From a virus: a stretch of DNA of 28,678 bases. This document shows positions 3,991-15,163 of the stretch, piece after piece. Made by a program: the position numbers and the translations under genes. Position 1 is the stretch's first letter, and each line of letters starts with the position of its first letter. The stretch covers positions 1 to 28,678 of IMG/VR virus record IMGVR_UViG_3300021425_000128. One strand, 5' to 3'. The notes below the pieces were generated by a model. The model did not search any database. It was not told where the DNA came from and was given only the letters and a program-made list of their open reading frames with translations.

Positions 3991-4737
3991 TTAGAACGTG
4001 CGTTCCTCGCAGAAAATACCACATTCAAAATCCATTCCCTTCATTTTCCTGCCTTTCGCATTTTCTGGTAGTTCATCGAGAAAAATCCTTTCACCTTTCC
4101 ACCTGACAAGCTTGCAACCTATATCCCTAGACTGCTTAGCGCGTTGCTCAAATATTTCTGGGTCCTGCTTTCTTACGTGATTCCAATAGGTTGCTGATGT
4201 TGCTTTTACGCAACCAATACAATTTGCGTTTGGATAACCCCGAAGATAGACAGAAGGCAATGCTATCCCAGCTTTTGAAATGATTTCAAAGCATTGCTGC
4301 TTGTTTATTTTTTCGTCAATCAAAACAGGAATGACGTTATCTCTTTCTGTCATGACAAATCTTTCGTGTCTCTTTATCTCGTCGTAAGTAAATCCAAGTA
4401 CGTGCCAATCTGGGTGATTATCTTTTTCCCATTGTTGCCTAGATGCTTTTTTTAGCTCCAATGTGCAAGGTGCGCCCAGTGGGCCACTCATGAATCTCCT
4501 ATCCTCCCAGACATCCACGCAAGAACATGAAGGGTATTTTGAGTTAGTGGCAAATTCAATCTCTACGCCAAGCCACTGTTGAACATCTAGCAAAAACCTG
4601 CGGTTATCAGGATCCTCCTCCGCTACTGGATTATTGATAATCCGAATGCAATGAGAGTTGCCATATTTTTCAATGGTTTTCAATGCGGCCACCGCACTAG
4701 CCGCACCACACGAGAACCAGACAGCGATTGTTTCCAT
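3991..4737 (-). CDS. PP-loop ATP pyrophosphatase-type protein (PAPS reductase-like)
   Basis: The 248-aa product starts at the ATG at 4737; a TTG one codon upstream is less likely. Residues 5-14 (AVWFSCGAAS) form a PP-loop, the SGGxDS-type pyrophosphate-binding motif of the adenine nucleotide alpha-hydrolase superfamily. Cysteines at 71, 73, 91, 173, 176, 239 and 243 include CxC, CIGC and CGIFC pairs that could hold an Fe-S cluster or zinc. GFTYDEIKRHERF at about 115-127 and the CIGC region match the general plan of phage 'PAPS reductase-like' proteins. Family members act in sulfate activation, tRNA thiolation or DNA phosphorothioation; which applies here is unknown. The gene looks less GC-rich than its neighbours, suggesting separate acquisition. 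It is cotranscribed with the primase-helicase and followed by a strong terminator. Confidence 0.75.
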   Translation of the reverse strand: METIAVWFSCGAASAVAALKTIEKYGNSHCIRIINNPVAEEDPDNRRFLLDVQQWLGVEIEFATNSKYPSCSCVDVWEDRRFMSGPLGAPCTLELKKASRQQWEKDNHPDWHVLGFTYDEIKRHERFVMTERDNVIPVLIDEKINKQQCFEIISKAGIALPSVYLRGYPNANCIGCVKATSATYWNHVRKQDPEIFEQRAKQSRDIGCKLVRWKGERIFLDELPENAKGRKMKGMDFECGIFCEERTF

Positions 4738-4768
4738 CAAGAAATGTTAACCATCAAATTCCGAAAAC

Positions 4769-6757
4769 CTAGAACGGAATGTCATCATCAACATCTGGCA
4801 TTTCCTCAGGGGCGTTCTCAATAGTTGGTTTCTCCTCCGCAAAGTCCGACGGTTCTGCTTCCACATAATCAAAAGAGTGATACATGCGGTCCCGCTCACC
4901 AGTGGGACCGAGTCTCCATGATGAAGAGATGAGCCCTTGGCGCCGTGCCTGTTCCAGCGTGCGCTTCGCTTTGCCGGTGTCATACAGCGAAAGGATGTTG
5001 CTCATCTGCTGAGCACTGAAACATTCCATGCCTCGATTATTCACGATATTGGCAGTCCGCATCAGATCTTCGGGGTCGCCGTCCACTGGCCCCCTGTAGA
5101 ACCAGCCATAAGTTTCGGGCTCGCGAACCAGGAAGTGCTTGCCGGACAGTCCGCTACGTGATTTTGTCCATTCCAGCAAGAATTCACTGGGGCCAGGATT
5201 GTTCTCGGGGCGGTAGAGCTTCACCACTTCAGAGACATTGGCCTCAAAGCTGGAGCTATCGCGTACACCGCCTGTTTTGTTGAGGTGGTGAAGGATGACG
5301 ATGCTGCAGCCATAGGTGTTGGCAATGTCTCGCAGTTCGTAGATGACATTGCCTGCATCGCTCTTGATGAGGTCTACATCCATGCCGGCCAGGCATGCGG
5401 TGAGACTGTCAATGGCCACAAATTGCGGGCGATCACGACGGATGCGCTCCGCAAGCCAGCCAATATTGGAAAAACGCCACCGTTCAATAAAACCAATGTC
5501 CTCAGGGTTGAGATCGTCACGGTCGTAGCCGATCACCTGCATCTTTTCCGCTGCATCGACCACTGGTTCGTCGCATTGGATGATGAGGCTTCTGCCTTTA
5601 GCACAGCGTCTGCCACTCCATTCGGTGCCAGTTGCAACATGTAACGCCCAATTGTAAATGAGCGTTGATTTGCCGCTGCCTGGAGCAGCGGCTAGGAGCA
5701 TCACGCTGCTTTCGGGAAGGATGCCAGCAATGGTCCAGCGCCTCACTTCATTAGACAGGGCAATGGCTTTGGCGTCCAACACCTCGATTTCCTCTTTGCC
5801 GTCCACGCGAGTCTTGGCTTCAGTCAGAAGCTTTTCAAGTTCGGTGGTGGCCATCTTGAGGCCGTGGTTTGTCATCCACTGGCGTGCTTCAAACAACACG
5901 CGGGCGTCATTGCCATAAAGGCCGACCATGGTTTCCAGGGCGCCAATGATCTCTTCATAGGAAGGAAGGCCGTCGTGGCCTTCATGGCGATCCTTTGAGA
6001 CGACAGAGGCGAGGATTAGTTCTTGGTCTGCACCTTCATCAATCCAATCGGAAATGTCATATCCGTTATTTTGCGGAAGTGAGTCCCATTCAAAATTTTC
6101 GGGATCTGCATACAACCACTGAGCGCCAGGGTTATCAACCGCCACTTCCCGCATGAGAGCCACGCCTGGCTCATCTCGGTCTGGACACAACACGAGACGG
6201 GCATTTTTGAAGAGGGATGAATAGTCCCCATTGCTCCTGTATTGCTTGCTACCGCCCAAGAAAGTGACGGACGGTAGTCCTATTTGCCAAACGGCATCAC
6301 AACAAAGCTCACCTTCAACCACAAAGATGGGCAGGCGGAGAGCCTTGGAGGCTTCAATGGCTTCGTTGTAGCGGTATGGCAGCACTTGAGAGCGCAGGCT
6401 CTCGATAACCTTCTGACGTTGAGGTGTATCAGGCTTTACCTCAGGATATTCCTGGAAGATCTGCTTCTTGCCGTCGTTGTCACGACGAACAACGTCCAAA
6501 ACCTTGTTGCCATCACGACTTTGGTAGGGGAAGCGATAGGAGCCGCTTTCCCTGGGCGGCCTTTCCCAACGCTTTAATGGGGCGAGGACATTGCGGATTT
6601 CAGCGCGATGCTTAGGTGATGGATCGTTCCAGCAGTTATAGGAACCATTGTTCCGGTCGAGGCTGAGGTTGTTGCCGCCACAGGCCGGACACTTATATTT
6701 CCCTGCTTCTTTGGAAGGCTCCAGCTTGGCTTCGTGGTCAAGGATGTTGAAGGCCAT
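4769..6757 (-). CDS. TOPRIM primase-helicase with an SSB-like C-terminal tip
   Basis: The 662-aa product has three readable parts. An N-terminal zinc-ribbon-like module has CPAC at 23-26, C42 and H50, as in DNA primases. A TOPRIM domain follows at about 143-200, with VVEGELCCDAV (E148) and the acidic CPDRDEPG (191-198). The C-terminal half is a RecA-fold ATPase of the RepA/DnaB type, with Walker A APGSGKST (358-365), Walker B FVAIDS (446-451) and SIVILHHLNK (485-494). It should make primers and unwind DNA at the phage fork. The final residues are acidic and end DVDDDIPF, the tip peptide normally found on bacterial SSB, although no OB-fold is visible. It is the first gene of the minus-strand unit, opposite the recombination operon across the divergent control region. 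Confidence 0.9.
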   Translation of the reverse strand: MAFNILDHEAKLEPSKEAGKYKCPACGGNNLSLDRNNGSYNCWNDPSPKHRAEIRNVLAPLKRWERPPRESGSYRFPYQSRDGNKVLDVVRRDNDGKKQIFQEYPEVKPDTPQRQKVIESLRSQVLPYRYNEAIEASKALRLPIFVVEGELCCDAVWQIGLPSVTFLGGSKQYRSNGDYSSLFKNARLVLCPDRDEPGVALMREVAVDNPGAQWLYADPENFEWDSLPQNNGYDISDWIDEGADQELILASVVSKDRHEGHDGLPSYEEIIGALETMVGLYGNDARVLFEARQWMTNHGLKMATTELEKLLTEAKTRVDGKEEIEVLDAKAIALSNEVRRWTIAGILPESSVMLLAAAPGSGKSTLIYNWALHVATGTEWSGRRCAKGRSLIIQCDEPVVDAAEKMQVIGYDRDDLNPEDIGFIERWRFSNIGWLAERIRRDRPQFVAIDSLTACLAGMDVDLIKSDAGNVIYELRDIANTYGCSIVILHHLNKTGGVRDSSSFEANVSEVVKLYRPENNPGPSEFLLEWTKSRSGLSGKHFLVREPETYGWFYRGPVDGDPEDLMRTANIVNNRGMECFSAQQMSNILSLYDTGKAKRTLEQARRQGLISSSWRLGPTGERDRMYHSFDYVEAEPSDFAEEKPTIENAPEEMPDVDDDIPF

Positions 6758-7245: not shown

Positions 7246-7510
7246 ACTCCGTAGCCACCTAGACGGCTACCTTCGCACTAACGAAGATTGCGAAATCAAG
7301 CTGTTCTGCGAAAGCGTCGTTTATGACGATGTGTTCGACGAGCATTCCGCTGAAGTCATCACTGACATCCGCTCGGTAAATGACTGGCCTCTACCTGGCG
7401 AAAGCATTGTCATTGGTGATGCAGAGCAACCAGGCAAGTACCTCGTCATCTTCTACGACTCATCTGACGAGAACAAGCGCTCTGGCTACAAGCGCAGCTT
7501 TGGCTCCTAA
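7232..7510 (+). CDS. Hypothetical acidic protein (92 aa)
   Basis: ATG at 7232, overlapping the upstream gene by 14 bases; its stop shares one base with the start of the annealing protein (TAATG). The product is acidic with alternating beta-type stretches (CEIKLFCESVVYDDVF, then GKYLVIFYDSSDENK). No family is recognised. Position between a DNA-binding protein and a recombination protein suggests a DNA-metabolism or host-takeover role, but this is only context. Confidence 0.65.
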   Translation: MKASELRSHLDGYLRTNEDCEIKLFCESVVYDDVFDEHSAEVITDIRSVNDWPLPGESIVIGDAEQPGKYLVIFYDSSDENKRSGYKRSFGS

Positions 7511-8445
7511 TGAAGCACTCCTTCACCGTTCACACCCCCTCCCTCATGTCTTCAGATCCCGCCCAGCAGTCCATGCTCGACCGTTACAACGGCGTCTTCA
7601 CTCCTCTTGAAATCAGCGCCGAAGCCTTTAAGGCTGCATACGACACCCCAGACATTGGTCCTCACATTGAGAAGGACTACAAAGGCCTTTCCTATCTCTC
7701 CTGGCCCTTCGCTTACCGCTATCTCAAAGAACACTTTCCCACGCTCTTCGTCGCGTTTGAAGAGAAAACCATTGGTGAAGTGGTCTTTGGTGGCCCCGGC
7801 TATTACTACCTTCGCCCTTACCTCACTGACGGCATCCGTCGCACTGTTGCTCTGATCTTCCCCGTGATGGATCGGAAGCACAATGCCATTAAAGAGCTGG
7901 ATGGTCGCGCCATCAGCGACAACTGCCAGCGTGCTGCCGTTAAGTGCATCGCCACCTTCACCGGCCTCGGCCTGCGTCTTTACGCAGGCGAAGACATCCC
8001 CAAAGAAGATGATCAAAAAGGATCGGCCCGGCTCCCGCTCCAACAGGATGCTCCGAAGCAAGCTCCGGCATCAAAGAAAGAGCAAGCGCCTGCTGATGGA
8101 GGCAATGCTCACCTTGGAGAAGCGTGGGCTCTTGCCTTCGATGGAAAACAAGCCCTTGTTGGATTCTGCGAAGCCAATCCTCTTGGACTCGCTGATGTGA
8201 GGGCCTGCCAAATGGCAGTCAAGAACGCCCTAGACACTGTTGGCCTTAATACTGGCGCCAACGTGAAGACTGTCGGCGATTTCGGCAATGTGATCACCAC
8301 TCTGGTGTCCTCCTGGACTAAGGAACAGGGCATCAAGATCACCAAGACTGCCATGACGAAAGAACTGGACAGTATTCGTGGAGCTGCAGTGTCCACCGAA
8401 GCTGCCGTCGAAGCCGTTAAGGCATTCGTTGCATCAAAAAAGTAG
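7510..8445 (+). CDS. Single-strand annealing protein, DUF1071/Sak3-like
   Basis: The 311-aa product has a core at about residues 58-165. It begins KGLSYLSWPFAYRYLKEHFP, continues through YYYLRPYLTDGIRRTVALIF and PVMDRKHNAIK, and closes with RAAVKCIATFTGLGLRLYAG followed by EDIP. This pattern (L.YLSW.wA…, PVMD.r.kAi…, n.aimRClvKaia.fGLGLyiYaGEDlP) is that of DUF1071 proteins, described as Sak3-type single-strand annealing proteins. They coat ssDNA and anneal it during phage recombination. A linker rich in Lys, Gln and Ala (165-200) leads to a C-terminal helical domain (about 200-311) I do not recognise. A RecB-like nuclease follows in the same operon, the usual partner. ATG overlaps the upstream stop; M13 is an alternative start. 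Confidence 0.75.
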   Translation: MKHSFTVHTPSLMSSDPAQQSMLDRYNGVFTPLEISAEAFKAAYDTPDIGPHIEKDYKGLSYLSWPFAYRYLKEHFPTLFVAFEEKTIGEVVFGGPGYYYLRPYLTDGIRRTVALIFPVMDRKHNAIKELDGRAISDNCQRAAVKCIATFTGLGLRLYAGEDIPKEDDQKGSARLPLQQDAPKQAPASKKEQAPADGGNAHLGEAWALAFDGKQALVGFCEANPLGLADVRACQMAVKNALDTVGLNTGANVKTVGDFGNVITTLVSSWTKEQGIKITKTAMTKELDSIRGAAVSTEAAVEAVKAFVASKK

Positions 8446-9168: not shown

Positions 9169-9356
9169 TTTCCCTCCTCATCATGGCTCAGCTTGCGCAG
9201 CCTCTCCCTCGCGTGGGTAGCTGCCCTATGGGCTACTTCATCTCCGGCGCCTATTGCGTGCCCTCTCGTAACGCAACTAATGCCATCGAGAAACAGGGAA
9301 GCAGTTGTCCCATGGGCTATTACACATCTGGCTCTTACTGCGTCAAACCACGATGA
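9165..9356 (+). CDS. Secreted two-repeat CPxGYxxSGxYC protein (63 aa)
   Basis: The ATG at 9165 gives a short hydrophobic leader (MISLLIMAQLAQPLPRVGS) that looks like a signal peptide. Two copies of one motif follow: CPMGYFISGAYCV at residues 20-32 and CPMGYYTSGSYCV at 48-60, separated by a Ser/Asn/Ala linker. Each copy has two cysteines, suited to disulfides outside the cytoplasm. Similar CPxGYxxSGxYC repeats occur in small exported proteins of cyanobacteria, which supports a cyanobacterial host origin. It is coupled by ATGA overlaps to the Cys-rich gene before it and the nuclease after it. The role is unknown. Confidence 0.7.
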   Translation: MISLLIMAQLAQPLPRVGSCPMGYFISGAYCVPSRNATNAIEKQGSSCPMGYYTSGSYCVKPR

Positions 9357-10114
9357 AATTCCCACGCTACGAGCCAAATAGGCTCCAAATTAACAAGAAG
9401 CGCTACTACGTTTCGGAGGAGCTTCCCAATGTTCCAGCAGGAATCGTCTTGCCGTCCGTTACAACAGTCGCCTCGGCCACCGCCCCCATAGGCAAAACAA
9501 TGGCCCTCATCAACTGGCGCAAGCGTGTAGGCGATGCGGAAGCAAACCGTCGCACGCGCAATGCCGTTGAACGTGGCAACTGGCTTCATGGAGTATTGGA
9601 AGACCTCTTTAATGGGGAGGATGTTGAGACGCATTTTGATAATGCGCCTCAATTCCTCCCTTACTACGAGAGCATTCAGGACTTCCTGGACCAGATAGAC
9701 GAGCCTCAGCTCGTCGAAAGTGCCATCTCGTGGTACTGCCCTTCCAGGGAAATTGGTTACGCGGGTACCTTCGATATGCTCGCCACCATGAAGAGCGGCG
9801 CCTATGCGCTGCTCGATTGGAAGACCAGTTACAAGCACAAGAGCGACTCGATGCTTGCGGACTACCGCATGCAGCTTGGAGCCTATGTGCAGGCCATTGA
9901 ACAGATGTATGACATCGAAATCAATGAGGCGCACTGCGCCATTGCCATCTACGATCCCGACACTGGAAAGGGCGAACAGGCTCAAATTGTGAGCCTGGAT
10001 GCCGGTGAGCTTGTAGCGCAAGCCGGCGTGATGACACAGAAGACTCAGCAGTTCTTCTTCGACCACTATCCCGGTCGTGTGCCCTTCACAATTTCTATGG
10101 ACAAGGGAGCTTGA
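9353..10114 (+). CDS. RecB/Cas4-like PD-(D/E)XK exonuclease
   Basis: ATG at 9353 (ATGA overlap with the upstream stop), 253 aa. Motifs are in the order expected for RecB-type nucleases: ERGNWLHGVLEDL at 73-85 (the GxxxH motif), E122, GYAGTFDML with D141, ALLDWKTS with D155 and K157 as the (D/E)XK pair, and YRMQLGAYVQAIE with Q174 and Y178 as the QxxxY motif. Such phage enzymes resect double-strand ends to give ssDNA for annealing. Being in one operon with a DUF1071-type annealing protein makes a two-part recombination system likely. The N-terminal 35 residues are basic and Tyr-rich and may bind DNA. Confidence 0.85.
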   Translation: MKFPRYEPNRLQINKKRYYVSEELPNVPAGIVLPSVTTVASATAPIGKTMALINWRKRVGDAEANRRTRNAVERGNWLHGVLEDLFNGEDVETHFDNAPQFLPYYESIQDFLDQIDEPQLVESAISWYCPSREIGYAGTFDMLATMKSGAYALLDWKTSYKHKSDSMLADYRMQLGAYVQAIEQMYDIEINEAHCAIAIYDPDTGKGEQAQIVSLDAGELVAQAGVMTQKTQQFFFDHYPGRVPFTISMDKGA

Positions 10115-10161
10115 TCTCCCGTTCATAGTCGCTACTCTTGTTCCGTTCTTCTTTTTCAACC

Positions 10162-10434
10162 ATGGCTTCTCAGCCTCTCTACAAAGTCGCAATCGACATC
10201 CCCGCAGACGTGTTCCGCGAGGCCAAGGAAGCTGGCCCTAACGACCGTGGCATGTACAGCCTTGCCGCATCGTTGTGGACCAACGACCGCAAAGTCAACG
10301 ACTCTCAGCCCAGCTTCACTGGCCAAGTGCAAGTGAAGGGCAAGATCGATGGTGCCAAGGGCTATGCCTCCATGTGGGACAACTCTGGCAAGGCTGGTAG
10401 CAGCAAGAAGGCTGCTTCCGACGATCTGTTCTGA
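10162..10434 (+). CDS. Small phage protein with an acidic DDLF C-terminus (90 aa)
   Basis: ATG at 10162 gives MASQPLYKVAIDIPADVFRE; the frame extends to a TTG at 10138, but the added residues are poor. The body is rich in beta-type segments (GMYSLAASLWTNDRKVNDSQ, then PSFTGQVQVKGKIDGAKGYA), followed by a Ser/Lys-rich linker and a final SDDLF. An OB-like beta barrel with a flexible acid-Phe tip is the plan of single-strand-binding proteins, and the neighbours are recombination proteins. I cannot confirm an OB-fold by eye, and no SSB motif is strong. Call it a possible ssDNA-binding accessory. Confidence 0.6.
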   Translation: MASQPLYKVAIDIPADVFREAKEAGPNDRGMYSLAASLWTNDRKVNDSQPSFTGQVQVKGKIDGAKGYASMWDNSGKAGSSKKAASDDLF

Positions 10435-11724: not shown

Positions 11725-12085
11725 GGCTCTTTCCTTTTCCTTTAGCGTAACCCTGCGCGACAGGCGGAAGACATTTGTACGGCCAGTGGAATCTGCACAA
11801 GATCCCGAACCTGTGATTACGGTTCTCCCAAGAACACCGTTTCGCCAGTCTCTCCGCACTCCAAATCATGATCCTTTCACCAAGGGACAGAGAGTGGTCT
11901 TGGTATCACTCACGTCAGATGGATGGATATATTCGGGATTCAAAGGCACGATTCTCTCCTTTGAACATGAGAAGGACAGTAAGGGAAGATCAGTGCGCAA
12001 AGCACGAGTGGCTTGGGATGAGGGTGACCAACATCCTGCCCGCATTAGTGTCTCAGCAATTTCGCGTCTCCGCCCAGAACAATGA
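11723..12085 (+). CDS. Hypothetical protein with an SH3/KOW-like C-terminal domain
   Basis: The longest reading starts at ATG 11723 (120 aa), back-to-back with the minus-strand ATG at 11724; a GTG at 11813 (90 aa) is a real alternative because the first 45 residues are low in pattern. The C-terminal 65 residues, from FTKGQRVVLVSLTSDGWIYS through GFKGTILSFEH to KARVAWDEG, look like a small five-strand barrel, as in SH3/KOW or 'chromo-like' RNA- or DNA-binding modules. The stop overlaps the ThyX ATG. Function unknown. Confidence 0.6.
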   Translation: MALSFSFSVTLRDRRKTFVRPVESAQDPEPVITVLPRTPFRQSLRTPNHDPFTKGQRVVLVSLTSDGWIYSGFKGTILSFEHEKDSKGRSVRKARVAWDEGDQHPARISVSAISRLRPEQ

Positions 12086-12795
12086 CTGATTTCACCATCC
12101 ATGATCCCCTCGGTGACGGTATTAGCAGTGTTCGGCTTCTCGACTGGATGGGAAGCTCAATGGACATTGTTTGCGATGCGAGGCAAAGCTTTGACCTTGA
12201 AAGTCCAGACTTTGGACCAAGAGAGCAGAAGCTTCTCAATTACTTGGTCGCCCATCGACACACCAGCCCGTTCCGGGGAGTGGTGTTCAAATGGCAAGTA
12301 AAAGCTCCGCTATTCGTCGCAAGACAATGGTGGAAGCATGTGATTGGCGGTACGTTTGCCAATGACCAGCTTGGCTGGAATGAGAAGAGCTTCCGCTACT
12401 GCCCTGCTGATAGCGAAGAGTTTTATTTTCCAAAAGAATTTAGAAAGCAGAGCACTAGCAACAAACAAGCCTCTGATGGCCCGCTCGATGAAGGCAGCAC
12501 ACGAGTGGCTGAAATCAAATATGCAGAGGCCTTGCAGATGGTGCGACAGGCCTATTCGACCCTGTTGGCTGTTGGCGTGAGCAAGGAGCAGGCACGCGGC
12601 ATTCTGCCGACATGCCACTACACCAGCTTTGTCTGGACCTGCAGCCTTCAGGCCCTCCTGCATTTTCTGAGCTTGCGTCAGCCTTCCGACGCACAATGGG
12701 AAATCCGTGCCTACGCCGACGTTCTTGCTGAGCTAGCCGAGCCTATCGTTAGTGAAGCCTTCGCAGCCTTCAAAGCTAATGACTCCTCCTTCTAA
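12082..12795 (+). CDS. thyX: Flavin-dependent thymidylate synthase
   Basis: ATG at 12082 overlaps the upstream stop (ATGA). The 237-aa product has the ThyX signature region RQWWKHVIGG…NEKSFRY (R81-Y106), with HRHTSPFRG at 58-66 and GILPTCHYTSFVW at 173-185. The C-terminal LSLRQPSDAQWEIRAYA (196-212) carries the conserved AQ.EIR. ThyX makes dTMP from dUMP with FAD, NADPH and methylene-tetrahydrofolate. The motif is a variant: the canonical RHR is KHV, and eight or nine extra residues stand before NExSxRY. It follows dcd in the same operon and likely works with it. Confidence 0.9.
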   Translation: MTDFTIHDPLGDGISSVRLLDWMGSSMDIVCDARQSFDLESPDFGPREQKLLNYLVAHRHTSPFRGVVFKWQVKAPLFVARQWWKHVIGGTFANDQLGWNEKSFRYCPADSEEFYFPKEFRKQSTSNKQASDGPLDEGSTRVAEIKYAEALQMVRQAYSTLLAVGVSKEQARGILPTCHYTSFVWTCSLQALLHFLSLRQPSDAQWEIRAYADVLAELAEPIVSEAFAAFKANDSSF

Positions 12796-14215: not shown

Positions 14216-15163
14216 ATGTGGCCCAGTAATCGAGCATTCTGGGACGAATGCTTCCAGATTGCTCGTAAGTGTGGCGCAAAATATCCTGAACTCGCGGCAG
14301 CTCAATGTTGTCTAGAGAGCGGATTTGGCAAGCACACTTCGGGCAAACATAACTACCTAGGCCTGAAGGGAAGTGGGACTAGCACTACCACTCAGGAATG
14401 GTACGACGGTCAATGGGTGACAATCAAGGCGGGATTTATTGATTTTCCCAGCCTTGCTGCATGCATTGAATATCTTGTCACGCGCTGGTATAAAGACTAT
14501 CGGCATTTCAAAGGCGTTAATCGCGCCCCTAATCGTTACACCGCAGCACGAATGCTTAAGGAGCAGTCGTATGCTACGGATCCAGATTATCCCGCTAAAT
14601 TATCGCGACTGATGAAGGAATATGCTCCTGAATCAACTCGCACATCTCCCATGATCGGCCCTAAGAAATCCCCGCGTGAATTTGGCTTCAAAGCTGGTGA
14701 CCATCACATCGTCGTCAATGACGTTGTAGAAACTGCCAAATGCTTCAATTCTGAAGGGAAGCTCCTATGGGAGCTTCCTGCACTGGCGCGAGGTCAAGGC
14801 AGTGACTATGAATGGAAGCTGCGCAACACTGACACTCCGCCCGGTCTCTACAAGGTGGGCACTGTCTACCGTGATTACGAAATCAATGGTGACAAGCCTG
14901 CGTTTGATCGCACGCTCATGGCTTATGGCTGGTACAGCCTCGACATGATCGATCTAGAGGGCCAAGAGCGCAGCAATGGGCGGGCAGGAATCATGCTGCA
15001 CGGCGGTGGCAGTGGTAATGGCTGGCCAGGTGCTTGGGCGCCAATGCAGCCCCTTCTGGCTACGCATGGTTGCGTTCGCATGCACAATGCCCATCTGCGT
15101 GATTTTGTGATGCCGCTTCTGAAAAGCGGCAGCATCTTCATCAGCGTCTACCAGGAAGGATGA
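14216..15163 (+). CDS. Endolysin: glucosaminidase fused to an L,D-transpeptidase (YkuD) domain
   Basis: The 315-aa product has two domains. The N-terminal one (about 8-138) is of the FlgJ/Atl glucosaminidase type: LAAAQCCLESGFGKHTSG with probable catalytic E34, NYLGLKG, then GFIDFPSLAACIEYL and a final YPAKLSRLMKEY. The C-terminal one (about 160-312) is a YkuD fold: HHIVVNDVVETAKCFNSEGK, TPPGLYKVGT, IMLHGG with H262, and THGCVRMHNAHLRDF with H284, C286 and R288, the active-site motif. The first part should cut the glycan strand; the second could act on stem peptides by exchange or hydrolysis, or bind them. A YkuD domain in a phage lysin is unusual. No signal peptide is seen, so a holin would be needed. 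Confidence 0.85.
   Translation: MWPSNRAFWDECFQIARKCGAKYPELAAAQCCLESGFGKHTSGKHNYLGLKGSGTSTTTQEWYDGQWVTIKAGFIDFPSLAACIEYLVTRWYKDYRHFKGVNRAPNRYTAARMLKEQSYATDPDYPAKLSRLMKEYAPESTRTSPMIGPKKSPREFGFKAGDHHIVVNDVVETAKCFNSEGKLLWELPALARGQGSDYEWKLRNTDTPPGLYKVGTVYRDYEINGDKPAFDRTLMAYGWYSLDMIDLEGQERSNGRAGIMLHGGGSGNGWPGAWAPMQPLLATHGCVRMHNAHLRDFVMPLLKSGSIFISVYQEG

Follow-up and report, generated by a model that had tools for sequence, protein, structure and literature searches.

An SSB-like acidic, phenylalanine-ended tip on the primase-helicase of a group of S-CBS4-like cyanophages with no detected DNA polymerase

The primase-helicase gp4 of phage T7 has an acidic tail which, together with its terminal Phe, is essential for binding of the T7 DNA polymerase (PMC12230644). 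This tail contacts basic patches on the polymerase (PMC12593628; PMC12230644), and removal of the last 17 residues of gp4 lowers processivity to about 5 kb, compared with 17 kb when they are present (PMC12593628). Comparison of the sequences showed that T7 gp4 ends in NDTDF and T7 gp2.5 in EDGDF, with the helicases of the T7-like cyanopodoviruses P-SSP7, Syn5 and S-RIP1 ending in STDF, YDDF and TTDF, respectively. As gp4 possesses this acidic Phe tail, a phage primase-helicase with such a tip is already known. In bacteria, the pockets which receive the tip of the single-stranded DNA-binding protein (SSB) grip its C-terminal Phe with a basic rim and with an arginine that contacts the Phe carboxylate (PMC5872125). 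The typical SSB of Anabaena is All4779, with a tail nearly identical to that of the E. coli protein (PMC3976300). Capture of the host replicase by phages without a polymerase of their own has been listed as a hypothesis for the cyanopodoviruses (PMC9860041).

The window analyzed here, a viral record of 28,678 bases taken at its full length, is a close relative of Synechococcus phage S-CBS4 (host Synechococcus CB0101), the 69 kb type phage of the clade, from which the host of the fragment was inferred. On its minus strand, positions 4769–6757 hold an ORF of 662 amino acids whose translation closes EEMPDVDDDIPF, the C-terminus reading ...ENAPEEMPDVDDDIPF. The product of gp082 of S-CBS4 is 90% identical to it. 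Searches returned a Pfam match to the RecA/AAA_25 fold (AAA_25, E = 3.4e-29) and a match to the PHROG 'DNA primase/helicase' over residues 12–657 (E = 3.4e-51), with the TOPRIM match (E = 0.12) and the zinc ribbon match both lying below the Pfam cut-off. In an alignment of 17 relatives the zinc-ribbon residues C23, C26 and C42, the TOPRIM motifs E148-G149-E150 and D193-R194-D195 and the Walker motif G362-K363-S364-T365 were all found to be invariant. The best whole-chain PDB match found with Foldseek for the predicted model, which is of modest overall confidence (mean pLDDT 71, pTM 0.41), was T7 gp4. The protein is thus a primase-helicase of the T7 gp4 type, with a zinc ribbon, a TOPRIM domain and a RecA-type helicase in one chain followed by a disordered acidic tail, and the formation of a hexamer and both helicase and primase activity would be expected from this type. 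The ORF, its strand, the PHROG and AAA_25 matches and the TOPRIM motifs bear out the preliminary description of a 662-residue TOPRIM/RecA-fold protein ending in DVDDDIPF. So does the Pfam search with regard to the lack of an OB-fold, as no match to the SSB OB-fold (PF00436) was found in this protein or anywhere else in the 28,678 bases; being a TOPRIM/RecA protein without this match, the primase-helicase is not a bacterial SSB.

The tail comprises residues 631–662 (positions 4772–4867, minus strand), which are predicted to be disordered (pLDDT below 50), and its tip DVDDDIPF lies at positions 4772–4795, next to the stop codon at 4769–4771. To follow this tip, a set of relatives was assembled from 32 viral loci and S-CBS4 itself, giving 33 sequences, of which 31 are complete at the C-terminus and among which S-CBS4 is present twice. 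A search for relatives in bacterial or archaeal genomes, as prophages, found none. All 31 complete relatives, which range from 56 to 100% in identity, end in Phe as does the window, and in nearly all of them this Phe is preceded by at least two acidic residues. The approximately 30 residues upstream of the tip cannot be aligned across the clade and are predicted to be disordered. In a pairwise test with 17 non-redundant helicase sequences, the last residue was identical in all 92 pairs below 70% identity, position −5 in 52% and position −4 in 41% of these pairs, with identity falling to 0–28% of the pairs at positions −7 to −30. Acidic residues occupy positions −5 and −6 in 76% of the 17 sequences. 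Since the Phe is invariant and the acids stand behind tails which are unalignable and predicted to be disordered, the tip is best seen as a conserved docking peptide and not as a product of chance, and the pattern indicates selection on the acid-Phe end.

The exact string is a different matter. Thirteen distinct endings were counted over the last eight residues in the helicase clade, including DVDDDIPF, DFDDGIPF, GADDDIWF, DNSLDDIF, SSLDDEFF, PEDPDDYF, EDSYSDLF, KEDDSCPF and KQEDFGLF, and among the complete relatives DDDIPF was shared with the window by one near-identical contig only (L002). What is conserved is therefore the class of ending, acids with a terminal Phe, and not DDDIPF. Aligning the C-termini of homologues, a check suggested in the preliminary description, thus upheld the type of tip within the clade but not the precise sequence, and most of the more distant phage helicases of the same kind do not carry the tip. 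It is absent from the Gordonia phages SITY and VAY and from BcepGomr, Tlacuache and ctfzr933, which rules it out as a universal trait of such helicases. Judged by its residues, the helicase end is of the SSB-Ct type, with acids and then a hydrophobic residue before the final Phe, and the tail, predicted to be flexible, is likewise of the T7 gp4 type in being acidic with an aromatic last residue.

Within the window, only three of 190 stop-to-stop frames of at least 60 codons end in Phe with at least two acids in the preceding six residues, namely the primase-helicase, a 90-residue protein at 10162 and a PAPS-reductase-like protein (3991–4740, minus strand) which ends in CEERTF. The last of these lies directly downstream of the helicase gene, matches the PHROG phosphoadenosine phosphosulfate reductase (E = 1.3e-38) and has no relative in the 33 related viral loci searched by tblastn. 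Of 104 CDS checked in S-CBS4, nine have Phe as their last residue and in four of these at least two acids stand just before the Phe, two of these four being the helicase and the homologue of the 90-residue protein. A few of these CDS do end in acid-Phe, so that single cases can be accidental, and this, along with the restriction of exact DDDIPF to the window and L002, is what a chance resemblance with no functional importance would have in its favor. Conservation in the relatives led to its rejection, with an invariant Phe and its acids kept through 13 distinct endings that stand behind unalignable tails, and its probability is considered close to negligible. The families encoded by neighboring genes in the related loci (Sak, exonuclease, dCTP deaminase and others) are mostly without a conserved last residue. 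The exception is ThyX with its conserved terminal Phe, where the end can be aligned and mostly lacks acids; a conserved terminal Phe is therefore not proof by itself. In the window ThyX is encoded at 12082–12795 (plus strand), and its terminal Phe (NNYxF and similar) is kept clade-wide. It should also be noted that an endolysin-like protein encoded at 14216–15163 (plus strand) joins a glucosaminidase domain to a following YkuD L,D-transpeptidase domain, an unusual combination in a phage lysin.

The 90-residue protein (10162–10434, plus strand) ends in SDDLF, as had been pointed out previously. A TTG at 10138, upstream of this start, would give 98 residues, which matches the annotation of S-CBS4. 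A terminal Phe is present in all 15 aligned sequences of its family and follows two acids in nearly all of them, the endings being SDDLF, SDLF, NDFF, EDVF, EEAPF and GDDLF. A weak match to a PHROG ssDNA-binding family (E = 5.5e-6) suggests that it is probably the phage's own ssDNA-binding protein. No Pfam match was obtained, and the search of the PDB gave no significant fold match, with one match to an uncharacterized viral structure; an OB fold is thus unsupported and its identity as an SSB is tentative because of this. The presence of two tip-bearing proteins in one replication cluster raises the idea that the helicase tip binds a phage protein, such as the exonuclease, Sak or another factor, through a receptor shared with the ssDNA-binding protein, thereby building a replication-recombination complex. 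The Sak-family single-strand annealing protein (7510–8445, plus strand, ending in ASKK) and the PD-(D/E)XK exonuclease (9305–10114, plus strand), neither of which has a tip, are possible partners on the phage side, and the Sak and Ssb proteins of staphylococcal phages are known to act as a pair (PMC5499656). Nevertheless, no co-variation between the tips of the helicase and the ssDNA-binding protein was obvious by eye, and the helicase tip is closer to that of the host SSB than to the phage SDDLF, which makes a phage partner of this kind improbable.

A phage DNA polymerase, the partner of the tail in T7, was also looked for. None is annotated in S-CBS4. Pfam searches of this phage and of four clade contigs (74, 70, 68 and 53 kb) likewise yielded no polymerase of family A, B or C, with the reservation that a very divergent enzyme could escape such a search and that the contigs may be incomplete. 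The large unannotated ORFs of S-CBS4 appear to be structural, virion or tail-like. On the basis of this Pfam search and of these large ORFs, a hidden phage polymerase was rejected. As no polymerase was detected in the clade, the T7-type partner seems to be missing, and for the same reason, with regard to S-CBS4, the mode of action is referred to here as T7-like and not as that of T7 itself.

The polymerase-less T7-like cyanopodoviruses P-SCSP1a, P-SCSP1i and P-SCSP1s, which represent one near-identical lineage, offer a comparison. Their primase-helicase ends in FFGEKL with no acidic Phe end, and the putative ssDNA-binding protein adjoining it keeps FEEEF. The helicase Phe is thus missing where the phage polymerase is missing, which follows the logic of T7. 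It also follows from these phages that use of a host polymerase does not generally require a tail of this kind. Unlike them, the S-CBS4 clade retains the tip with no polymerase detected, and a non-polymerase or host partner is therefore favored.

Host SSBs were taken from picocyanobacterial genomes located via psbA. The first, typical-scoring paralogue ends in SDDDVPF, SDEDVPF or SEEEVPF, and the second, more divergent and weakly scoring paralogue, which resembles Anabaena All4779 in length and tail, ends in DDDDIPF, DTDDIPF or DDEIPF. By its residues, the window helicase tip is therefore also the tip of a host-type SSB. Given this shared ending of the host SSBs, and a clade in which no polymerase was detected, the most likely target appears to be the pockets by which host proteins receive the SSB tip. 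Among candidate receptors, members of the PriA, RecO and RecG families occur in all seven host-type genomes; Pol III chi was found in none of the seven and was ruled out as a target.

It is proposed that the helicase ends in a short linear motif for docking, borne on a flexible tether and positioned like the acidic tail of T7 gp4, with a gp4-like hexamer expected to display about six tips per fork. The tip would fit into the pockets for the SSB tip on host proteins of replication and restart, the candidates being PriA, RecO, RecG, DnaG and DnaE, and its binding would tether the host machinery to the phage fork, with the acid-Phe-ended ssDNA-binding protein of the phage possibly using the same kind of receptor. 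In this scheme we infer the hexamer, the binding of the tip, the identity of the partner and recruitment rather than competition. The most likely reading, at about even odds, is that the tail is a T7-style tether with a host SSB-partner protein, and not a phage polymerase, as its receptor.

Counting against the host pocket is the drift of the clade tips to LDDEFF, PDDYF, EDFGLF, YSDLF and DDSCPF, which are looser than any picocyanobacterial SSB tip examined; a generic acidic-aromatic contact therefore fits them as well as an SSB pocket does. The main rival of the host-pocket reading is accordingly a plain coupling in the T7 manner, in which the acidic-aromatic tail would sit on basic patches of the polymerase at the fork, host Pol III or Pol I, with no SSB-tip pocket involved and the likeness to DDDIPF being a convergence in composition. 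The loose tips in part of the S-CBS4 clade, the endings of the T7, P-SSP7, Syn5 and S-RIP1 helicases and the contact of the T7 tail with basic patches (PMC12593628; PMC12230644) all agree with it. It is considered rather unlikely, as DDDIPF, DDGIPF and DDDIWF are more SSB-like than the T7 tip and match the host SSB, and there is no detected phage polymerase with which the tail could co-evolve. Action of the tail inside the helicase itself, by mimicry of ssDNA or control of hexamer assembly, has a parallel in SSB proteins, whose acidic tails may regulate the binding of DNA by the protein itself, as discussed in PMC3976300. It would leave the invariant terminal Phe and the likeness to the host SSB unexplained and is thought very improbable.

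The earlier view of the tip as an SSB mimic therefore stands in part. Host SSBs carry the same tip and plausible partner families are found in the hosts, but with the precedent of T7 gp4 an SSB-type tip on a helicase is not new, and nothing favors a tip transplanted from SSB over one that evolved in place. What is new is the likeness of the helicase tip to the host SSB within a clade showing no DNA polymerase. A search of the open literature found no direct report of a phage helicase with a mimic of the SSB tip, which is weak evidence given that subscription papers were mostly outside its scope. More broadly, it may be suggested, tentatively and with some doubt, that in polymerase-less phages the helicase-primase carries a mimic of the tip of the host SSB, that SSB-tip pockets are an entry to takeover of the host replisome and that the T7-type tether is here directed at the host. 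Docking in a host pocket would join T7-type helicase-polymerase tethering to the bacterial SSB interaction hub, and with a conserved peptide only a few residues long and a single Phe that can be mutated in vitro, the question of host replicase capture would become directly testable.

When compared with known systems, the window phage is like T7 in the disordered, acidic, Phe-ended tail of its gp4-type protein and in an ssDNA-binding protein, gp2.5 in T7, which also has an acid-Phe end. It differs in that the polymerase bound by the tail is phage-encoded in T7 and none was detected in the clade, and in that DDDIPF, DDGIPF and DDDIWF are nearer to bacterial SSB than is NDTDF. The gp082 protein of S-CBS4, annotated as a RecA-family ATPase, is the orthologue in the same gene cluster; its tip is DDGIPF (end DFDDGIPF), and the annotation is silent on both the primase-helicase and the tail. 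Another acid-Phe end in cyanophages is found in the Pseudanabaena phages Pam2 and PA-SR01, where the replicative RecA-fold ATPase ends in ESIEDEF. These differ from the window in having the primase as a separate gene (annotated in Pam2), in the DNA polymerase which PA-SR01 has of its own and in the lack of IPF. Over the last eight residues the E. coli SSB end, DFDDDIPF (the peptide in PMC5872125), is like the DVDDDIPF of the window helicase. The bacterial SSB-Ct is carried on an OB-fold protein and conserved more strictly, whereas the tip described here is carried on a helicase and conserved less strictly.
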